From the NCBI RefSeq assembly GCF_001625215.2, contig NC_030386.2:24770545-24834544 (forward strand): 64,000 nt of DNA, written 5' to 3'. Shown here piece by piece: positions 1,743 to 63,039 of this stretch (the first letter of the stretch is position 1; every line of letters starts with the position of its first letter). The position numbers and the translations under genes were made by a program. This DNA is from Daucus carota subsp. sativus. Its lineage: Eukaryota; Streptophyta; Magnoliopsida; Apiales; Apiaceae. The notes below the pieces were generated by a model, which worked only from the letters and a program-made list of their open reading frames with translations, was not told where the DNA came from and ran no database searches.

Positions 1743-2756
1743 AGGTTAAATGGCGTTTTGATCATTAAACCGACCTATAACTTTCACTTGGATCATCGTA
1801 CTCAAAAAGCTGTCAATTAGGTCACTTAACTAGTAAAAATATGCAACTTAATCATCGAAGACGATGAAACTTTCACGGCCGTTAAATCCCATTGATTATA
1901 GACGGTGTTCCGTTAAATCTTTCCACATATGCTGCCACATCAGCTTATTAGTCCACCTATCAATAAAACCACCCGGCTGAGTTAGGACCCGACCCAGGTA
2001 ACTCACCCACAACTCATTATATTTCCCTATTTCTTTCAGTTCACCCATCTGTATAAACTCAATAGCTTCGACTTATACAACGAGTCCGCCGCAATCTCCA
2101 TGCGCCTCATCTTCGCCATATCATAAAAGAACGTCATCAGCTCGACGGCGGAAGTCTCGATGGAGCGTGACGGCGGTCAATATTGTGATTGGTGAATGGA
2201 ATCGAGGTCTCGACAGTGAATGTCGTTGAGTCGATGAAGTACGAACATGAGAGGTGTAGGGGCGTGGGGAGAGGCTTCGGGAGATTACAGCTCCGACGCG
2301 ATAAAGTCACCGTCGATTAGAGAGATGGGGTTTGGTGGAGACTAGAGAGACGAGATTTGAAAAATGAGATTTATATGTCTGTGTATACACTTTTGGTTTT
2401 ATGAGTTTTAAAGAATAAGATGATGAGCTCTTTTTAAAAAATGGACATGAAAGAGAGTTGAAGAAGAAAAATGGTGGATAAGAAATGAGGAAGGAGAAGC
2501 TAGAAATGAATAATGATGTTGGGTTATAAGATGTGGAACGGGTCTAACGATCCAATGACGTGGAGCAGCCACATAGGTTGCCAATCTGCCATGTAAGCCT
2601 GCCAACTCATTTTTCCATCCAAGAGTTAACGGCAGTAACGGCAAGTGACGTGATTAAAGTTTTTATTAGTTCAATTATTTGACTGAAAGTTTTTTAAGTT
2701 TGATGACCCAAGTGAAAATTCGTAGTCAGTTGAGTGACGAAAACGCCATTTAACCC
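1743..2756 (-). mobile_element. Pack-MULE (non-autonomous Mutator-like element) with captured PDH E1-alpha fragment
   Basis: The two ends are inverted repeats: the left end reads AGGTTAAATGGCGTTTT and the right end is its near-perfect reverse complement. Weaker matching continues for roughly 100 bp, including a shared TCACTTGG(A/G)TCAT block. The element is flanked by a perfect 9-bp direct repeat GATTTTTTG at 1734-1742 and 2757-2765, the target-site duplication length of Mutator-like elements. No transposase is present, so it is non-autonomous. Its centre is much richer in G+C than its surroundings and, read on the minus strand, encodes part of pyruvate dehydrogenase E1-alpha (listed separately). 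That combination defines a Pack-MULE. The strand given is that of the captured gene piece. Confidence 0.88.
2062..2301 (-). pseudogene. Captured fragment of mitochondrial pyruvate dehydrogenase E1-alpha (N-terminal part)
   Basis: Read on the minus strand, 2301-2157 gives a presequence-like stretch followed by TVETSIPFTNHN. After a frameshift near 2156 the frame from 2155 to about 2063 gives [20 protein letters not shown] and then SLYKSKL. The run [13 protein letters not shown] is a hallmark of plant mitochondrial PDH E1-alpha (PDHA1/IAR4 family), where it follows the transit peptide and precedes the thiamine-diphosphate domain. Only the first part of the protein is represented and the frame is broken, so no enzyme can be made. 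It lies wholly inside the Mutator-like element at 1743-2756. Its source should be an intact gene elsewhere in the genome. Confidence 0.87.
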
Positions 2757-4730: not shown

Positions 4731-7250
4731 ATGGACCGGAAAGCTCAGCAGCAGCAGCAGCAGCAGTTGGATGTGGAAGTGAGGAAGGGGCCTTGGACTA
4801 TGGAAGAGGATCTGATTCTGATCAATTACATCGCGAATCATGGGGAAGGTGTCTGGAATTCCCTTGCTAAATCTGCAGGTAATTGAACACACACACAAAC
4901 ACGCTCTATTGGTTTTTAGTTACAAGAGCTAGGTAATTGAGTTTATGTTTGATTACCGATAAGAATTGTGGGAATGGAATAGGATTGAAGCGTACCGGGA
5001 AGAGCTGCAGGCTCCGGTGGCTGAACTACCTGCGTCCTGATGTGAGGAGGGGGAATATCACGCCGGAAGAACAGCTGTTGATCATGGAACTTCATGCTAA
5101 GTGGGGAAACAGGTACGTACATGCATGCAGATTCAATCATATTATTGAATTTATGCCTATTTGAATATTTCTGATACTTCGAATATTTCTTTTTCAATTG
5201 TTGAGTAAAGGAGCTACTACATATAGGTTTCTATTTTCTTCGATTCTTGAATCTTAAATCTCGTATCATATTCATCATGCACCTTATTTCGCTTCAATCC
5301 ATTCGTATTTTATACCAAATTTCCCTACTTTGCATTCATGTTTTCGAATAGATCTCACGGCCAGATATCTGGATTTCAGAAATTGTTCAGTTAAGTTATA
5401 AATCTCAATTTCTTGGCTACGTACGTACAAAAACCAGTATGCAATATGCAGAAGAGAAATATTATGGTTTTGTGTTTTGTTTAATCGCGAAAAAAATGAA
5501 TATCAGTCTAAATCTGCCAGTAGTTTTCCATATGCATGATGCATGTTCTAAACGCTTGTCCGCCATCTTACTTGTTGTCGATGAGCTTTAAGCGGCAACA
5601 CCTGTCAATCATCAAATACATCTGCCTTCTTAATCATTAGAATCATCACTTGCTTCATCAACAACCTACGACCCATCTAGCTTAGCTTGTCACCACTCTT
5701 TTTCCTTCCCTTCCCAAAAATCTTTCCTCCTTTTTTCTTTCCATATTAACAAAATAAAAATCTCTGTACGTAAAAATTTCTTCTGAAACTCAATATATTC
5801 ATGTTACTAGCTCGTTATGATGTTTGCAAGGACTTTATTGTTAAACAACCAGTTCTCGTGAAATCTCAGAGTGTTGGGAGAAAGACTTATCAGGATCATA
5901 TTGTATTCTAATATTTGATATTGTATATGCAAGACTTAATTTTAAATAAATAAATGATGGGAGAAAGCAATATAGATATATACTGCTAGTGAAAGATGAG
6001 TTTAGAACGCGGCATAGCTAGCTAGGTAGCCCCAGGAAGCGTACGCCAATGGAAGTTTCCATTTCAAGGTGTAGCCATTTCAATGGCCATACTGTAAAGC
6101 CCTTGCCCTTAGTTAAAATAGCCCCTATCCAAGTCAATTTGATGATTTACTTGATCCTGACTAGTGCCCTCAATGTTTTGGCTCTTCAAGACATTGTGGC
6201 CCTCCCTACTTAGTCTTTCATCCCCATTAATTCCTCAATCCCCCAGGCCCCCTTTCCTCATTACCCATACTAATCTATGGTGCTCCTTTTATCAATAACC
6301 TTATCTACCTAGAATCCTTTTAATCCGTCTTCTGTACTTATAAGTTATAACCCTAAAGTAGCTAAACCTCGCGAGGACTCTACGTGCAATTATTCACTAT
6401 CCCTTCCGGTACAAGAATAAGTACATGTGAAATATGTGTCCGAAGATATGATAGATTTTTGTACATTGTCTAACATGGCAAGATCATGAATGTAGCATTA
6501 GAAAACCAAACCTTGTCTCCACCGCGATGAATACACTGATCCATTCTGCAAAATGCACGATTCTATTGAGATTTTCAGAGCACGAGCTGTCTGTCGAATG
6601 AGATTGAGTTTCGCATAATGCAGCTTAGAGCCTGTTCCTTTAAATAACAAGCACAACATATGAATTAGGCTGAGCTCATTTCAGGACCGTGGAACATGAG
6701 CTTATTTCTCTTGATCCACTTAAAAGAAACATGTAACATGCTTCAATTTCAACATATGTTGTATTGTATTTACTCTGTTTTTACATTTTGTAACTAATAG
6801 TGGGCCGTAACCTAATTTTCAGGTATTTTCTTTACCATACCTTTCTGTGTCGGGTCGAATTAAATTTTGTATTAATATTAGTCTCTGTTCCGTAGGTGGT
6901 CGAAAATTGCTAAGCACTTGCCGGGGAGAACCGACAACGAAATAAAGAATTTCTGGAGGACTCGAATTCAGAAGCATATGAAGCAAGCTGACCAGCAGAA
7001 TTTCAGTACTGGACAGAGCTCGAATTCTGAGCACATTATGTGGACCAATGATAATCAAGCGAGCTCGAGCCACTTGGCTTCGGGGGCTCCACAAGATCAC
7101 GCGATGGAGAATTATTCGCCGCCGAGCTACCCCGTGAACATGGACACTGGGGCGGCTCTGCCGCCGCCTTCTTTTCCGGCGGATCAGAGTAACGAGAATA
7201 TGTGGAACGTGGAGGATTTTTGGTCTATCCACCTGCTAAATAATGACTAA
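4731..7250 (+). CDS. R2R3-MYB transcription factor, subgroup 19 (MYB21/MYB24/MYB57-like)
   Basis: Three exons, 4731-4878, 4983-5112 and 6896-7250, join in frame with GT-AG introns of 104 and 1783 bp into 210 residues. Intron phases (1 and 2) match the usual R2R3-MYB pattern. After seven glutamines the protein runs [18 protein letters not shown] (R2, tryptophans intact) and then [21 protein letters not shown]3 follows with [20 protein letters not shown]. The C terminus [18 protein letters not shown] matches the subgroup-19 motif W-x-(M/V)-(D/E)-D-(I/F)-W-S-x-x-L-L-N. Family members are nuclear activators in late stamen and petal development. They are released from JAZ repressors by jasmonate and also control floral volatiles and flavonols. 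The start is chosen for its strong context (A at -3, G at +4) and match to the family. Whether it is the MYB21 or MYB24 orthologue cannot be decided. Confidence 0.95.
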
Positions 7251-12943: not shown

Positions 12944-13152
12944 TGATGACTTTTGTGTTATGTATACACTCACGAAATGCAAAGTAAAGAGCTCTGAATA
13001 TGAAATGTAAAGTTGTGTCACATTACAGAGAGAACTCAGCTTTATACAAGCTGTTGAAAATGTAACAAACTCCTATACACACAGATACTATATATCTATA
13101 TTCTGTTATATGTAAAGTACTATTATGCCCTGTGATAATACTCAGTTTAACA
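12944..13152 (-). repeat. Copia 3' LTR
   Basis: 209 bp, starting TGATGACTTTTG and ending TTTAACA in plus-strand reading. It is identical by eye to the copy at 17497-17705. The last codon of the polyprotein overlaps its inner edge by six bases. Confidence 0.96.
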
Positions 13153-16100
13153 CTCCCCCTCAAGCTGAGCTGAGGTTGAAGCTCCAAGCTTGGACAGGAG
13201 GTAAGACTGTTGATGTGCTGGCAGCTGTTTAGTCAGAATATCAGCAAGTTGTTCATGAGAAGGCACATGACAAGTGTGCAGTTCACCAGATTTCAGTTTG
13301 TCCCGAATGAAGTGACAGTCTATTTCCACATGCTTAGTACGCTCGTGCAGAACAGGATTAGCTGCTAGAGAGATTGCAGCTTGATTATCACAGTACAGTG
13401 CAGTGGAAGGTAAAGACTTGATCCCCATGTCCTTGAGCAATGCATGTAACCAGGTGATCTCACATGCTGTCATTGCCATTGAGCGATATTCAGCCTCTGC
13501 TGTTGATCTTGCCACAACTGCTTGCTTTTTACTTTTCCATGAAATAGGAGATGAACCAAGGAGGATGCAAAACCCAGTTGTAGAACGTCTAGTAGTTGGA
13601 CAACTCGCCCAATCACTGTCACAGAAGGCTTGGAGTTGTACTGCAGACGAAGATGCCAGCAAAATACCTTGTTGGGACGTGCCTCGGAGATACCTGAGCA
13701 GTTTTTTAGCAGCCTGCATATGAGTAGTTGTAGGTTGGTGCATAAACTGACTCAAGACATGTACAGCAAATGTGATGTCAGGTCGAGTCACCGTCAAGTA
13801 AATCAGCTTGCCCAAAAGACGTTGATAATCAGTAGGATTAGGCAAAGGATCTCCTGTATTTGGAGTGAGCTTTAAGTGACAGTCAAGTGGAACCTTCACT
13901 GATGTAGCTGAGTCCATGTGAAATTCTTTTAACAAATCTCTCACATACTTCCTTTGAGACACAAAAAATCCTGCTGAACTCCGTTCAATTTCCAGGCCAA
14001 GGAAATAGTTCACATTGCCAAGATCTTTCATGTGAAACACATTAGACAACATCTTCTTCAGATTGACAATCTCAGATTCTGTGTCACCAGCAATAAGAAT
14101 GTCATCAACATAAATGAGTACCAATGTAGAGGAAGATGCTGTGATGATAGTGAACAAACTTGCATCACTTTGTGATTGAACATAACCCAGTGAAATTAGA
14201 GTGTCTGATAATTTCTTGAACCAATTCCGAGGCGCTTGCCTGAGACCATACAGGCTTTTCAAGAGTTTGCACACCCAATGAATATCTGAACTTACATTCA
14301 TCTTTGCTGATTGACCAGTTTTAATTCTACTGCCATAAGACGTATAACCTTGAGGCAACGTCATGTACACATCTTCATCCAAGTCTCCATAGAGGAACGC
14401 ATTCGTAACATCCATTTGAACTACAATCCAATTATACACAGCAGCTACAGCCAGTAAAGCTCGAACAGTAGACATTTTTGCAACAGGTGCAAAAGTCTGT
14501 TCATAATCGATACCATACTGCTGCTTACATCCCAACACCACAAGTCTGCTCTTATATCGTTCAACACTTCCATCAGCTTTGAATTTAGTTTTGAAAAGCC
14601 ACATACAACCAATTGGTTTCTTATCAGGTGGAAGAGGAACAATGGCCCATGTGCCATTACGTTCTAGAGCATCAAGTTCAAGATTCATTGCTGCAACCCA
14701 ATGATCATGCTGTACTGCATCAGCAAATGTTTTAGGATCTGCAGATGTTGAAATAGTAGCCAGAAAACAACTGAACTCTTGTGAAATAACATGATCAGCA
14801 GACTGTGCTATGTTAGCAGCTTTAGTAGGTATAGTAGCATAGTCTTGTAGCCAAGATGGAGGTTTACTCTGTCTACCAGTGCGCCTGAGTGGTATATCCA
14901 CAGTATTGGTGGATGTGTCTGGCTCAGATGCATTGCTAGTTGCAGAAATGGGCACAAATTCATCAATGTCAACAAAAGAAGACACTGGTGGTGCAGTGAG
15001 TGACATAGGCAATGGTAGAATATAGGGTGTTTCACAGGACTTGTTCAGTGGAAAAACTGTCTCATGAAAGTTTGCATCACGAGATACAAATGTAGTATGA
15101 TCAATCAGACTCAAGAATTTGTAACCCTTTTTACCTGTTGGATATCCCAAAAACACACAAGGAATGGCTTTGGCTTCAAATTTATCTGATGAAGTAGAAG
15201 GATTAGCCACAACTGCCAAGCAACCAAAAATTCTGAATTCACTGTAATCAACCTTCTCTTTAAACAAAACTTCATAAGGAATTTTGTATTCCAAAGCTGA
15301 TGTAGGCAGTCTGTTCATTATGTAGACAGCAGTCATGATACAATCACCCCAGAATTCCAAGGATAAACCTGACTGAAATTTTAAGGCTCTTGAGAGCTCC
15401 AAAATTTGTCTGTGTTTGCGTTCTACTCTGGAGTTCTGCTGAGGTCTGTGAGGACAAGAAGTCTGGTGTGTTATCCCATGCTGCTGATAGAAAGCATTTG
15501 CACCAGAATCTGAGAATTCTGGAGCATTGTCTGAGCGCAGAGTTTTCACAGTAATGCCAAAGTGATTATAAACATAGTTAAAAAATGTATTAAATTTCTC
15601 TAAGAAGTCTGACTTATGCTGCATGAGGTAAATCCAAGTCATTCTTGTATGATCATCAACCAGAGTCAAGAAATAACGATATTTGCCCCGTGTGCAGACT
15701 CTGTATGGACCCCAAGTGTCCAAGTGGACAAGATCAAATGATTTTGCAGCATGACTATCACTCAGATTGTAAGGTAATTTTGTGAATTTGGCTGCAGGAC
15801 AAGTCAAACACACCTTCTCTGTTGATTTAGTAACCACATCTTTCAGTTGTGAAATATGCTGTATTGTACTTTTAGAGGCATGGCCCAATCTTTGATGCCA
15901 GACAGTGTAATCATGTTCAGATGAAACAATTTTCTGAGCAGCATTCAATTCCTTTTGTTGAGATAAGACAGACCTGTCTGAAATACAGTACAAACCATTT
16001 TCAATGACCCCAACAGCAAGTACTTGATTATCAGCCTTTCTCAGAATTTCACAATCAGAAGGATTGAATTTCACATAACATGAATTATCTTGTGCCAGCC

Positions 16101-17406
16101 TGTGAATAGAAAGCAGATTATGCTTGAAAGAAGGCACATACAAGACTTCCTTAAGTACAAGACCATTTTTCAGTTGTAATGATCCAATATGTGATATCTC
16201 TGCACTGTGATTATTTGGCAGTTTGATAACACTATTTGGAGGGGCCTTTCTAACATCAACAAGATTCTGCAGATATGCTGTCATGTGGTCTGTAGCACCA
16301 CTATCAATTATCCAGGTCAAGGAACTACACTTAGCAGTTGACAAGCAACAAGTCACCATTCCTGAGAAGGAGTCATCTAATTCTTCATCTGTTCCATTGC
16401 CTGTGTTAGGCAAAAGCTTAAGTAACTGTTCTAATTGTTGAGATGTCAAATTGACAGTGTCTGAAGCCTGTGATGAGACACTGGCCTGAGCATTGTTGCT
16501 CATTTTCTTATTTCCATTCCATTTAGGAGCAGCTGAACCTTGTGACTTGAAATTAGGCTTAGGTTTATGCTTATCATGCCATTTCGGATAGCCAATTTTA
16601 GTCCAACACCTCTCAGCAGTATGACCTTTTTTATGACAAATTACACATTCTAAAATCCTGTTTCCTTGACTAGTGTTCTGACTCAACATTGCTGCACTCT
16701 CAAAATCAGTAGCACAGTTTAACACTTCTCTCTGTGATTCCTCTTGCTGTATAGCTGCACAAGCAACTTCAACAGTAGGAAGTGGAATCATCATTAACAA
16801 CTGGCTACGCTGTGGAGCATATATCTCATTTAATCCATTTAAGAACTGAAAAAGCTTTGCCTCTTCTTTGAATGTTGTAAGAGTACTCATCAATTTGACA
16901 ATATCAGGATTTACAGTTGCAACCACAGGCAAAACATTCAGTGAATCAATTTCATCCCAAACACAAGTTAGGGCAGTATAATACTCAGCAATTGAAGATT
17001 TGTTCTGTTTCAACTCAAACAAATCCTTATTCAACTTATATTTACGAGATCCATTAGTCAACATAAAACGTTTCTCCAACAAACTCCAGATTTCACAAGC
17101 AGATTCAACATATAGAATAGAATTGCGAATTGCTTCAGAAACATTGTTGTGGAGCCAAGAAATTACCAGAACATTACACGTATCCCACTGCAAAGCATCA
17201 GTTTCATCTGTTGTGCTGCGTAGAATCGTGCCATTAACAAATCCGAGCTTCCTTTTCGAAGCTAATTGGATCTCAATAGAGCGCTTCCATGAACGATAAT
17301 CAATCGCACCTTGAAGCTTCGGTACAACAACCGATGTAGGTCCATCTGAAGGATGTAAAAATAGTGGATTTTGCAGATCAGCAAACGTAAAACGTGCTCC
17401 CGCCAT
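13147..17406 (-). CDS. Copia Gag-Pol polyprotein, 1419 aa, intact
   Basis: A single open frame starts at an ATG 91 bases inside the 5' LTR and stops at the edge of the 3' LTR. Domains in order: Gag (about 1-250); zinc knuckle C254-x2-C-x4-H-x4-C267; aspartic protease WIIDSGATDH near 366-374; GAG-pre-integrase HQRLGH at 504. The integrase core has D563, D626 (in LRSDNAPEF) and E662 (in VERKH). Reverse transcriptase carries QMDVTNAFLYGD near 997 and YVDD at 1099-1102. RNase H has CDSDW at 1262, CDNQAA at 1339 and HVEIDCHFIR at 1359. No stop or frameshift interrupts it, and the length is normal for plant Copia. The frame makes the proteins for particle assembly, reverse transcription in the cytoplasm and integration. 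Confidence 0.97.
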   Translation of the reverse strand: MAGARFTFADLQNPLFLHPSDGPTSVVVPKLQGAIDYRSWKRSIEIQLASKRKLGFVNGTILRSTTDETDALQWDTCNVLVISWLHNNVSEAIRNSILYVESACEIWSLLEKRFMLTNGSRKYKLNKDLFELKQNKSSIAEYYTALTCVWDEIDSLNVLPVVATVNPDIVKLMSTLTTFKEEAKLFQFLNGLNEIYAPQRSQLLMMIPLPTVEVACAAIQQEESQREVLNCATDFESAAMLSQNTSQGNRILECVICHKKGHTAERCWTKIGYPKWHDKHKPKPNFKSQGSAAPKWNGNKKMSNNAQASVSSQASDTVNLTSQQLEQLLKLLPNTGNGTDEELDDSFSGMVTCCLSTAKCSSLTWIIDSGATDHMTAYLQNLVDVRKAPPNSVIKLPNNHSAEISHIGSLQLKNGLVLKEVLYVPSFKHNLLSIHRLAQDNSCYVKFNPSDCEILRKADNQVLAVGVIENGLYCISDRSVLSQQKELNAAQKIVSSEHDYTVWHQRLGHASKSTIQHISQLKDVVTKSTEKVCLTCPAAKFTKLPYNLSDSHAAKSFDLVHLDTWGPYRVCTRGKYRYFLTLVDDHTRMTWIYLMQHKSDFLEKFNTFFNYVYNHFGITVKTLRSDNAPEFSDSGANAFYQQHGITHQTSCPHRPQQNSRVERKHRQILELSRALKFQSGLSLEFWGDCIMTAVYIMNRLPTSALEYKIPYEVLFKEKVDYSEFRIFGCLAVVANPSTSSDKFEAKAIPCVFLGYPTGKKGYKFLSLIDHTTFVSRDANFHETVFPLNKSCETPYILPLPMSLTAPPVSSFVDIDEFVPISATSNASEPDTSTNTVDIPLRRTGRQSKPPSWLQDYATIPTKAANIAQSADHVISQEFSCFLATISTSADPKTFADAVQHDHWVAAMNLELDALERNGTWAIVPLPPDKKPIGCMWLFKTKFKADGSVERYKSRLVVLGCKQQYGIDYEQTFAPVAKMSTVRALLAVAAVYNWIVVQMDVTNAFLYGDLDEDVYMTLPQGYTSYGSRIKTGQSAKMNVSSDIHWVCKLLKSLYGLRQAPRNWFKKLSDTLISLGYVQSQSDASLFTIITASSSTLVLIYVDDILIAGDTESEIVNLKKMLSNVFHMKDLGNVNYFLGLEIERSSAGFFVSQRKYVRDLLKEFHMDSATSVKVPLDCHLKLTPNTGDPLPNPTDYQRLLGKLIYLTVTRPDITFAVHVLSQFMHQPTTTHMQAAKKLLRYLRGTSQQGILLASSSAVQLQAFCDSDWASCPTTRRSTTGFCILLGSSPISWKSKKQAVVARSTAEAEYRSMAMTACEITWLHALLKDMGIKSLPSTALYCDNQAAISLAANPVLHERTKHVEIDCHFIRDKLKSGELHTCHVPSHEQLADILTKQLPAHQQSYLLSKLGASTSAQLEGEC
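13153..13161 (-). other. Polypurine tract of the Copia element
   Basis: Minus-strand GAGGGGGAG directly next to the 3' LTR, the expected primer for plus-strand DNA synthesis. Confidence 0.85.
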
Positions 17407-17484
17407 TAAAACTCAACTGTAAGCTTCAAGAAGATTACGCAGAGAAGAGAAAGATGAAATTTGCACTCGATCTGTATATACAAA

Positions 17485-17496
17485 GCTCTGATACCA
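17485..17496 (-). other. Primer binding site (initiator Met tRNA)
   Basis: Minus-strand TGGTATCAGAGC directly abuts the 5' LTR. It is the classic complement of the 3' end of plant initiator methionine tRNA. Confidence 0.92.
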
Positions 17497-17705
17497 TGAT
17501 GACTTTTGTGTTATGTATACACTCACGAAATGCAAAGTAAAGAGCTCTGAATATGAAATGTAAAGTTGTGTCACATTACAGAGAGAACTCAGCTTTATAC
17601 AAGCTGTTGAAAATGTAACAAACTCCTATACACACAGATACTATATATCTATATTCTGTTATATGTAAAGTACTATTATGCCCTGTGATAATACTCAGTT
17701 TAACA
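17497..17705 (-). repeat. Copia 5' LTR
   Basis: 209 bp. It would contain the promoter and transcription start for the minus-strand element. It matches 12944-13152 throughout by eye. Confidence 0.96.
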
Positions 17706-18516
17706 ATAACATTCAAGATTGATTACTCCAGATACATCAGCGTCAAGTACGAAGCTTTGTGATTGCATAGATCAAGTTAAATGATTAAATAATTGCGGTG
17801 AAGTTGCTATTATTAAAGCTCGCAACATACTAAATTTGGAAATGATGCTCCATGTGACGGGGAGTTAACATCGAAATAAAATGGCAGCTCCATGAGTGAT
17901 TCACTGTTTGTCAACTGCATTGATAGCGGATGAGATGTGAAGTGAGGCTCAAGTGAAAGTATGTGTCGATGCATTATTATTCACAAATCCCATCTTATTG
18001 CGTTACACTAGCTGTCGTTACTATCTTCTTTGCCACAATTACTCGAACCAATTATTTTCAGTAAATTAAAAGGAGAAAGCTTTTTTAAGATGCTGTTTAT
18101 TTGTTGGTAATATAATTGTTGTAGCTTCTTAATTTTTGATAATAATTTCGGAATGGCTGTTTGTTTATGTATAGAATTTAGTTTTTAAGACTTTGTGATT
18201 ATGGATTAACTCACCAAAATAATGTAATGAGCTTTAAATGATCGTTTTTATCAAATAACCGATAACAGGAATATAATTTTTTGAAAATATAATCAATTTG
18301 TGTCCTCAAGTATTTTTCATTGGGCCTCAAAGACGGACTTCCTTGTACGCCAAATCACACATGATTCATTCCATTAGCCCAAATACTATCCCAAGAATCA
18401 GCGAAGGCACATTTTTTTAGCAAAAATTAATTCAATAATGAAGTTATGTGATATTGAAAATCGAATCGAGTAAAAGTCATCAGAATTTCATATAATCCAA
18501 ATCACTTTTTTTTTTT
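17706..18516. other. Intergenic, no gene recognised
   Basis: Moderately AT-rich sequence without a convincing exon, followed by C(T)11 at 18505-18516, which flanks the next element. Confidence 0.5.
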
Positions 18517-19050
18517 GGGTTAATAATCAAGTGAGTCATCAGAATGTGCTCGATATATCAAGTTGATCACTGAACTCAAAACCGTCTCAAATTGGTCACT
18601 TAAGTCGGTTACACGTATCTTTAAATATGAGCTGAAGGATTAAAAATATTATTTACAGAAGTTTACGCATTATTCTTGAATATTACCACAACTAAGTACA
18701 ATGTTATGACTTCTAGTATTTATAATAATATATTTTGATTTTATCAAGTTTATTTATTATTCATTTTTAATTAAAATAAAGAAATTAACTATATAATAAA
18801 AAATAAATAACAAATAAACTTGATAAAATCTAAATATATTATCATAAATACTAGAAGTCATAACCTTGTATTAAGTTGTGGTAACATTCAAGAATAATGT
18901 GTAAATCTATGTAAATAATATTTTTACTCCTTTAACTCATATTTAAAGATACATGTAACTGACTTAAGTGACCAATTTGAGACGGTTTTGAGTTCAGTGA
19001 CCAACTTGATATATTGAGTCCACTTTGATGACTCATTTGATTATTAACCC
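18517..19050. mobile_element. Foldback (MULE-type) element, 534-bp near-complete palindrome
   Basis: Starts GGGTTAATAATCAAGTGAGT and ends with its approximate complement. Almost the whole length is one imperfect inverted repeat, with arms of about 250 bp meeting near 18780-18800. A C(T)11 tract follows the right end (19051-19062), matching the C(T)11 before the left end (18505-18516). This is consistent with a target duplication of about 9-12 bp, though homopolymers make it weak. The terminal blocks (TTGGTCACTTAAGT) resemble those of the Pack-MULE at 1743-2756. Confidence 0.7.
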
Positions 19051-27968: not shown

Positions 27969-28213
27969 GGGTGTTTGTGTGACACTTATAAGTCGAGCTT
28001 CTGGGATTATAAGTTAGGAGCACTTATTCGTACCGTTTGTGTAATAAGTCAAGAAGCACTTATAAAAAGCTAGGAATGCTAACTTTTGTTTCAGGACTTC
28101 TACTTATTTGCCAAACACTTTAATCACTTATAAGTCTTGTCTGGCTTCTAACTTCTCCTCCACTTATTTATTTTAAGCAAGAAGCACTTATTTTAAGCTC
28201 AGCCAAACGGCCC
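27969..28213. mobile_element. hAT-like MITE, about 245 bp
   Basis: Ends GGGTGTTTG and CCAAACGGCCC with an internal partly palindromic body (ACTTATAAGT, AAGCACTTAT, CTAGGAATGCTA). It is closely similar along its length to 43880-44122 and, in reverse orientation, 59650-59891. An 8-bp duplication could not be verified, so the superfamily is a guess from the TGTTTGG-type ends. Confidence 0.65.
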
Positions 28214-28989
28214 CAATAACTTTTACTTGGGTCGGCAGACCCGACAATGCACGTTGCATTGCTTTTGATATGATAATTTTCGATTGTTGGCCTGTTGCAT
28301 TTGCATATGATAAAGAGTGGTCAAATGTATGCAAGGTGTTATTTTTCCTAATATGATGTACCTTTCCTCGAATCAATAGTTAATACTAAAAGTTGATGAT
28401 ACTAGTCTAACATAACTTAAAAAATGCTTATTACTTCTAATTGTGAATTTTTTTTCTTAGACTTATAAATGTGAAGTTATAAATGTGAAGTTGATTATAA
28501 ACGAGAAGTAATTTTTGTATTATGTATTTGACTAAATTATGACAAATCATGATATGAAAATTATTAATATAACAATACATTAATATAATTAACTTTTAGA
28601 ATGATCATTTTGTAAAATCAAATTTCAAAAAACAAAAATCACTAAAAAAATTAGAATTTTTTATCTCTTCAAGTGTCAATTTCCTAATCACACCTGAAAC
28701 AACCGGTGGAAATATAAACAGACGACCTCCATACACATTGCGGTTGAATAATTTTATACATGTATTAAACATTTCATGTTTTAAACGAAATCGAAATTAA
28801 CAGTCGTCAACACCAACACCAGGAAAGAAATCGAACTTTTTTCTATAGAAAAAGTTAGAATGTTTATCGAACATACCTACAAGCTCCAAACTACAATACA
28901 CCATCAATTAATCTAAAAAAATATATGTATATCATCATTCATCACCATCATGTGACAGATAAGATGAAGAAGAAGAAGATAAGATGAAA
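28214..28989. other. 3' flank of the cysteine-rich gene
   Basis: AT-rich sequence. The part nearest 28989 is presumably the 3' untranslated region of the minus-strand gene next to it. Confidence 0.45.
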
Positions 28990-62202: not shown

Positions 62203-62280
62203 CCTTCTCCTCTACACTACACATAAATATATAACCACCTTCTCTTCTTCATTATTCTTACTTTGAATTACAATTACAAA

Positions 62281-63039
62281 ATGCAGAATAATTTAAACGA
62301 CAATGTCGTGTGCCCTAGCTTCAACAGCTATTCCTCCGATAAACTCGCCGAGATCGCAAGCAAAGTCACCGACGAATTCAACCGAATCACTCTCGTTCAC
62401 GACGAAGACGAGTTCGAGTTCTCTCTAGAACTCTCCGCCGATCAAATCAACAATCAAGGTCCTATCTTTCCTATCTTCAATCGTCAACTATACGATCAAA
62501 ATAACGAAGAAAAAGCTTCAGCGAATCTCCTGCCATTGAAAAATCTCTTTCTCGAAGAAGCCGAAGCGTCTCGTTTGTCATCTTCATCTTCGTCCGAGGC
62601 TGATGAGCTGGAATCAATACCGCCGGGGACGTACTGCGTGTGGAGGCCAAAAGACGACGTCGCGTCGTCTCCGGCGAGCTGTAAGAAGAGCAAATCAACC
62701 GGATCGGCGTCGAAGCGGTTCAGGATCCGAGATTTAATTCGGAGGAGTAACAGTGAAGGAAAGTCGTCGTCGTCGTCGTCATCGTTCGTGTTTTTGACAC
62801 CGAAGAAAGAAAAATTAGTGGATGAAAAACTGAGGCTAGAGTCCGGGAAAGTCGCCGGGAAAATGAGAGCGCCGGCATCTCCGTCGTCGTCGGCGCACGA
62901 GACGTTTTACATGCAGAATAGAGCGATGAAAGAAGGTGAAAAAAGGAAATCATATTTACCGTACCGTAAAGATCTGGTAGGGTTTTTCGCAAATGTGAAT
63001 GGGCTTGGCAAGGCAGCTAAACCGTTTCCTCCGTATTAA
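62281..63039 (+). CDS. DUF1645 family protein, 252 aa
   Basis: Single-exon gene. Landmarks in family order are FEFSLELSADQI with PIFPIFNRQL (46-70), PPGTYCVWRPK (114-124), CKKSKSTGSASKRFRIRDL (134-152) and RRSNSEGK. Next come a serine run and FVFLTP (169-174), SAHETFYMQNRAMKEG (204-219) and RKSYLPYRKDLVGFFANVNG (222-241). DUF1645 proteins are plant-specific and probably nuclear; rice SGL, which alters grain length and plant height, and stress-responsive members belong here. No enzymatic domain is known. ATG 62281 is chosen over the open frame reaching back to 62263, which has no earlier ATG. The gene is boxed in by Stowaway elements on both sides: one copy begins 31 bp after the stop codon and so may be transcribed in its 3' untranslated region. 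Confidence 0.93.
   Translation: MQNNLNDNVVCPSFNSYSSDKLAEIASKVTDEFNRITLVHDEDEFEFSLELSADQINNQGPIFPIFNRQLYDQNNEEKASANLLPLKNLFLEEAEASRLSSSSSSEADELESIPPGTYCVWRPKDDVASSPASCKKSKSTGSASKRFRIRDLIRRSNSEGKSSSSSSSFVFLTPKKEKLVDEKLRLESGKVAGKMRAPASPSSSAHETFYMQNRAMKEGEKRKSYLPYRKDLVGFFANVNGLGKAAKPFPPY

Follow-up and report, generated by a model that had tools for sequence, protein, structure and literature searches.

The stretch of carrot DNA analysed here (64,000 nucleotides, referred to below as the window) contains an insertion of 1,014 bp at positions 1743-2756 which, with a probability that we put at about 0.9, is a non-autonomous Mutator-like element of the Pack-MULE type carrying part of exon 1 from a PDH E1-alpha gene. 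Its assignment draws on a perfect target site duplication, paired terminal inverted repeats, a fragment of a host gene as cargo (PDH E1-alpha) and reading frames too short and too interrupted to suggest a transposase of its own. The individual element is new, and it is an ordinary example of a well-known plant phenomenon.

Borders and terminal repeats

The insertion is flanked on both sides by the 9-bp repeat GATTTTTTG, with the left copy at 1734-1742 and the right copy at 2757-2765 (neither assigned to a strand) identical at 9/9 positions, as the original prediction had claimed. Exact 9-bp matches occur at 441 of 24,957,800 position pairs sampled in this AT-rich window at spacings of 200-2999, a background rate of 1.8e-5, and at the element's own spacing they occur at 6 of 62,968 positions in the window. 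Because the end bases of the element, 1743 and 2756, are unpaired, the borders may equally be read as 1744-2755 with an 11-bp duplication that has two terminal mismatches. On either reading the duplication falls within the range of 9-11 bp which, together with long ends, is given as the hallmark of Mutator-like elements in PMC3310237.

The left terminal inverted repeat occupies 1744-1839 on the plus strand, with the outer end GGTTAAATGGCGTTTT, and its partner lies at 2660-2755 on the minus strand; both arms are 96 bp long without gaps. They are 75% complementary across these 96 nt, and the pairing reaches approximately 145 bp when gaps are allowed. The arms align with a score of 48; the highest score in a sample of 3000 random pairs with matching spacing is 26.5. 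The Mutator-like ends that had been proposed are thus upheld. Moreover, a scan for the outer 21-mer that tolerated 3 mismatches or fewer finds only two sites in the window, which are the two ends of the element in inverted orientation, and none in 100 shuffles. A further inward extension of the inverted ends is suggestive by eye, and was abandoned because the sub-terminal similarity is no better than in shuffled sequence (score 94.5 versus a shuffle median of 91.5). Terminal inverted repeats of MULEs are typically 100-500 bp in length, and the carrot element has long ends of this kind at 96 bp and 75%. One filter described in PMC3310237 accepts inverted repeats of at least 50 bp, and the library elements in the same pipeline have ends of at least 100 bp that are at least 80% alike; the carrot ends (75%, 96 bp) fall below these library criteria.

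No further copy or autonomous relative of the element was seen in the 64-kb window. A search of the window with a profile built from the two ends (nhmmer) returns both of these ends, weak matches to the ends of a second segment at 18517-19050 (E 0.0061 and 0.021), an isolated match (28201-28246, E 0.027), and four matches with E >1. An exact 20-mer of the end family has 0 matches in viral contigs, a result that is uninformative for a plant element.

The segment at 18517-19050 is itself MULE-like, forming a near-complete foldback with 257-bp arms that are 90% complementary and 20 nt apart, flanked on both sides by CTTTTTTTTTTT. T runs are present at both MULE-type insertion sites, at 1734-1742 and 18505-18516. 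Repeats of the AGCACTTAT type occur within 28006-28246 (at 28006-28028, 28050-28071 and 28170-28199) and adjoin the weak MULE-end-like match at 28201-28246.

The captured PDH E1-alpha segment and its source

Homology to PDH E1-alpha lies on the minus strand at 2063-2304 and covers the N-terminal part of the protein, with 81 codons in two frames. The 5' part (43 codons, 2176-2304, minus strand) starts LSRRSCNLPKPL and is displaced by one base from the reading frame of the 3' part (38 codons, 2063-2176, minus strand), at the end of which the homology stops; the captured piece is thus broken by a 1-base frame shift. A GTG at 2308-2310 stands in place of the first M codon of the homologue P0001, which begins MALTRRSCNL where the element reads GTG ACT TTA TCG. 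The G+C content within 2143-2342, in the captured part, is 0.52 and 0.56, compared with 0.33 for the window. No stop-to-stop frame of at least 110 aa overlaps the element and its six-frame translation is interrupted by stops; on the basis of frame lengths and this translation only, it is without its own transposase.

Searches were performed with the two frames joined by an X at the frame shift (82 positions), and returned 193 proteins with E values up to 10 among 214 candidates, the best of them at E 1.4e-20 and 64% identity. All of the best 120 of these 193 contain the Pfam domain PF00676, the named ones among them are PDH E1-alpha, dehydrogenase, or hypothetical or unnamed products, and every organism given is a seed plant. 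The alignment ends at residue 83 of the 90-residue query in 120/120 of these listed matches (of 193), just past SLYKSKL, where the full-length proteins continue IRGFCHLYDGQEA. The 90-residue piece, a short query, gives no match in Pfam, a sub-threshold match to PDH E1-alpha in NCBIfam (E 0.064), and, among solved structures, a match to the somatic mitochondrial form of PDH E1-alpha (E 0.13), which we take to be the human protein. The identity of so short a piece is settled by the large protein search and not by the family libraries. The prediction of a PDH E1-alpha cargo therefore stands as to its identity, with the 13-residue motif on which it was founded read on the minus strand, but what the element carries is a damaged N-terminal piece whose reading frame is not intact.

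The position of the capture border was considered using the 27 homologue predictions that have fewer than 300 residues. Twenty of these reach the motif ENNH (at residue 222 to 287) and continue with CK, CE or CN, as if an intron beginning at a GT donor had been left in; three go on as the spliced protein, and four are without the ENNH motif. Since the first intron apparently follows ENNH, the border of the capture, near residue 82, would lie inside the first exon, a placement derived from proteins and not from a carrot gene model. These data also bear on whether the segment is simply a decayed processed or tandem E1-alpha pseudogene that by chance has an unrelated inverted repeat on either side. 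The captured piece is without introns, as such a pseudogene could be, but the same region of the gene is apparently intronless too (20/27 predictions to ENNH). Furthermore, the homology starts near the start codon and ends inside an exon, and the inverted ends and perfect 9-bp duplication frame the piece at exact positions, such that we regard a chance arrangement of this type as very improbable.

Parental sequence beyond the coding segment may also have been captured. The interval 2305-2470 (minus strand) is a candidate for the parental 5' flank, and could include the promoter and 5' leader, in which case the element would have a start site from which a truncated E1-alpha RNA of sense orientation might be made. 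The minus strand bears a TATAAA at approximately 2370-2375, some 60 bases ahead of where the start codon was lost, and is free of ATG throughout 2321-2400. Against this, 2321-2400 is not unusually rich in pyrimidines (it ranks at the 85th percentile of the window), for which reason promoter capture is kept as a weak rival only, and with GTG at the coding start, the capture border may coincide with the start codon. We consider promoter capture a doubtful addition to the Pack-MULE interpretation, although the least implausible of those discussed here.

The distribution of differences between the fragment and its homologues points to a source gene that was under constraint. The 66 E1-alpha rows used for comparison (P0241-P0306) were first found with the N-terminal 100 residues (1-100) of P0009, a Heracleum protein, and not with the fragment, in a search that gave 665 matches, of which the best 120 are listed. 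In these 66 rows, 30 columns show a uniformity of 95% or more, and the fragment agrees with 29 of them; the sole departure is at fragment position 50, where it has I instead of V, and the same I is present in 22/186 rows. Compared with P0009 the fragment differs at 9 of 53 core residues, only one of the nine falling where the column is conserved (P 0.0035 if placement were even), and the same placement test with five other homologues gives P values from 4.96e-5 to 1.8e-4. As the differences avoid conserved positions, the natural reading is that most of them arose while the source gene was still functional, with little decay since capture. A 95% upper bound on this decay is ~4.4% if the V to I change was inherited and 7.0% if it was not (68 non-synonymous-equivalent sites), both values being rough in that they assume even mutation and independent rows. 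If post-capture decay is indeed small, the 25% divergence of the two ends would be older and would predate the capture. P0009 is the only carrot-family name among the matches listed in either search (120 of 193, and 120 of 665), and the carrot E1-alpha protein may be within P0009's 12-member cluster (90% clustering), or may be another E1-alpha copy.

Orientation, transcription and neighbourhood

The antisense orientation that had been claimed is borne out, since the sense strand of the captured piece is the minus strand and a plus-strand transcript would be antisense to it. 'Antisense' is strand naming only, as the strand of the window is arbitrary. The inverted ends of MULEs are able to carry promoters, according to PMC3310237, so sense or antisense transcripts, or both, would be possible.

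The original prediction went further, suggesting that a plus-strand transcript could give rise to antisense or small RNAs with a regulatory effect on carrot E1-alpha, and the captured orientation permits this. In maize, according to the review PMC13317346, elements that capture genes, Pack-MULEs among them, are reservoirs of small RNAs that can silence their donor genes, which argues in its favour; the same review states that silencing of essential donor genes is expected to be counter-selected, which argues against it. A regulatory role of the insert on E1-alpha is unsupported by the sequence features described here, and we view such regulation as unlikely. Somewhat less likely again is a composite in which a little-decayed E1-alpha 5' end, possibly with its promoter, would be transcribed both ways from the MULE ends to yield small RNAs acting on E1-alpha, with the source perhaps not the P0009-related copy. 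Were small RNAs to match an essential metabolic gene, the element would provide a test case for silencing by such elements versus sparing of the donor.

The element is located ~2 kb upstream of a putative MYB gene on the plus strand, so it could be imagined to affect this neighbour just as well as E1-alpha. By eye, an ATG at 4731 opens a MYB-like exon, and a MYB domain is present in a later frame at 6882-7247; the two probably belong to one MYB gene. Elsewhere in the window there is a complete copia LTR retrotransposon at 12944-17705 on the minus strand, with 209-bp LTRs that are 100% identical, a flanking repeat ATAAC, and a single uninterrupted 1421-aa frame with gag, integrase and reverse transcriptase domains; it is a very young insertion and may be active. 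A DUF1645 frame at 62227-63039 encodes a protein of 252 residues with 100% identity, along its whole length, to Daucus carota ACET3Z_022378, the next named relative being from Heracleum at 82%; by this criterion the window derives from carrot or a very near relative.

Under the Pack-MULE interpretation, the element would have gained its E1-alpha piece as a copy of a host gene, through either gap repair or template switching, both of which are general proposals for sequence capture by MULEs. The element would then have been moved by a transposase from elsewhere into the AT-rich site ~2 kb upstream of the MYB gene, where it is now most likely a passenger without function. Transcription, if any, could proceed on both strands from the two ends.

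Comparison with known elements

No report of this element was found among the open-licence papers listed in literature searches on Pack-MULEs with pyruvate dehydrogenase or with carrot. It contributes a further example, from carrot, to a class that is already well described. Pack-TYPE elements, including Pack-CACTA and others, are similar in being inverted-repeat elements that contain a piece of a coding gene. In PMC8903248, the target duplications are given as 5, 8, TA or TTA/TAA for CACTA, hAT, Mariner and PIF; the carrot element differs from Pack-TYPE elements of these groups in its 9-bp duplication, and is therefore of the MULE type.

Mutator-like MITEs of carrot, for which PMC8227079 gives 6308 copies with a mean of 429 bp, share with this element the host species, the MULE-type duplication and the non-autonomous character, but the element is longer and has a host-gene piece inside. 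The main text of that paper contains no word starting with 'pack'.

In form there is a close resemblance to the Pack-MULEs of rice and tomato, with which the carrot element shares a 9-bp duplication at an AT-rich site, inverted ends, a length of ~1 kb and a single host-gene piece. Among tomato Pack-MULEs, lengths of 1000-1200 bp form the most frequent class (PMC3310237), and the 1,014 bp of the carrot element fall within it. The tomato element PM-ZIBP-1, described in the same paper, is 944 bp long, has the target site duplication TTTTAAATT and has outer ends that are 87% identical. The carrot element differs from it in having ends only 75% alike, in its host, and in carrying PDH E1-alpha as its cargo.
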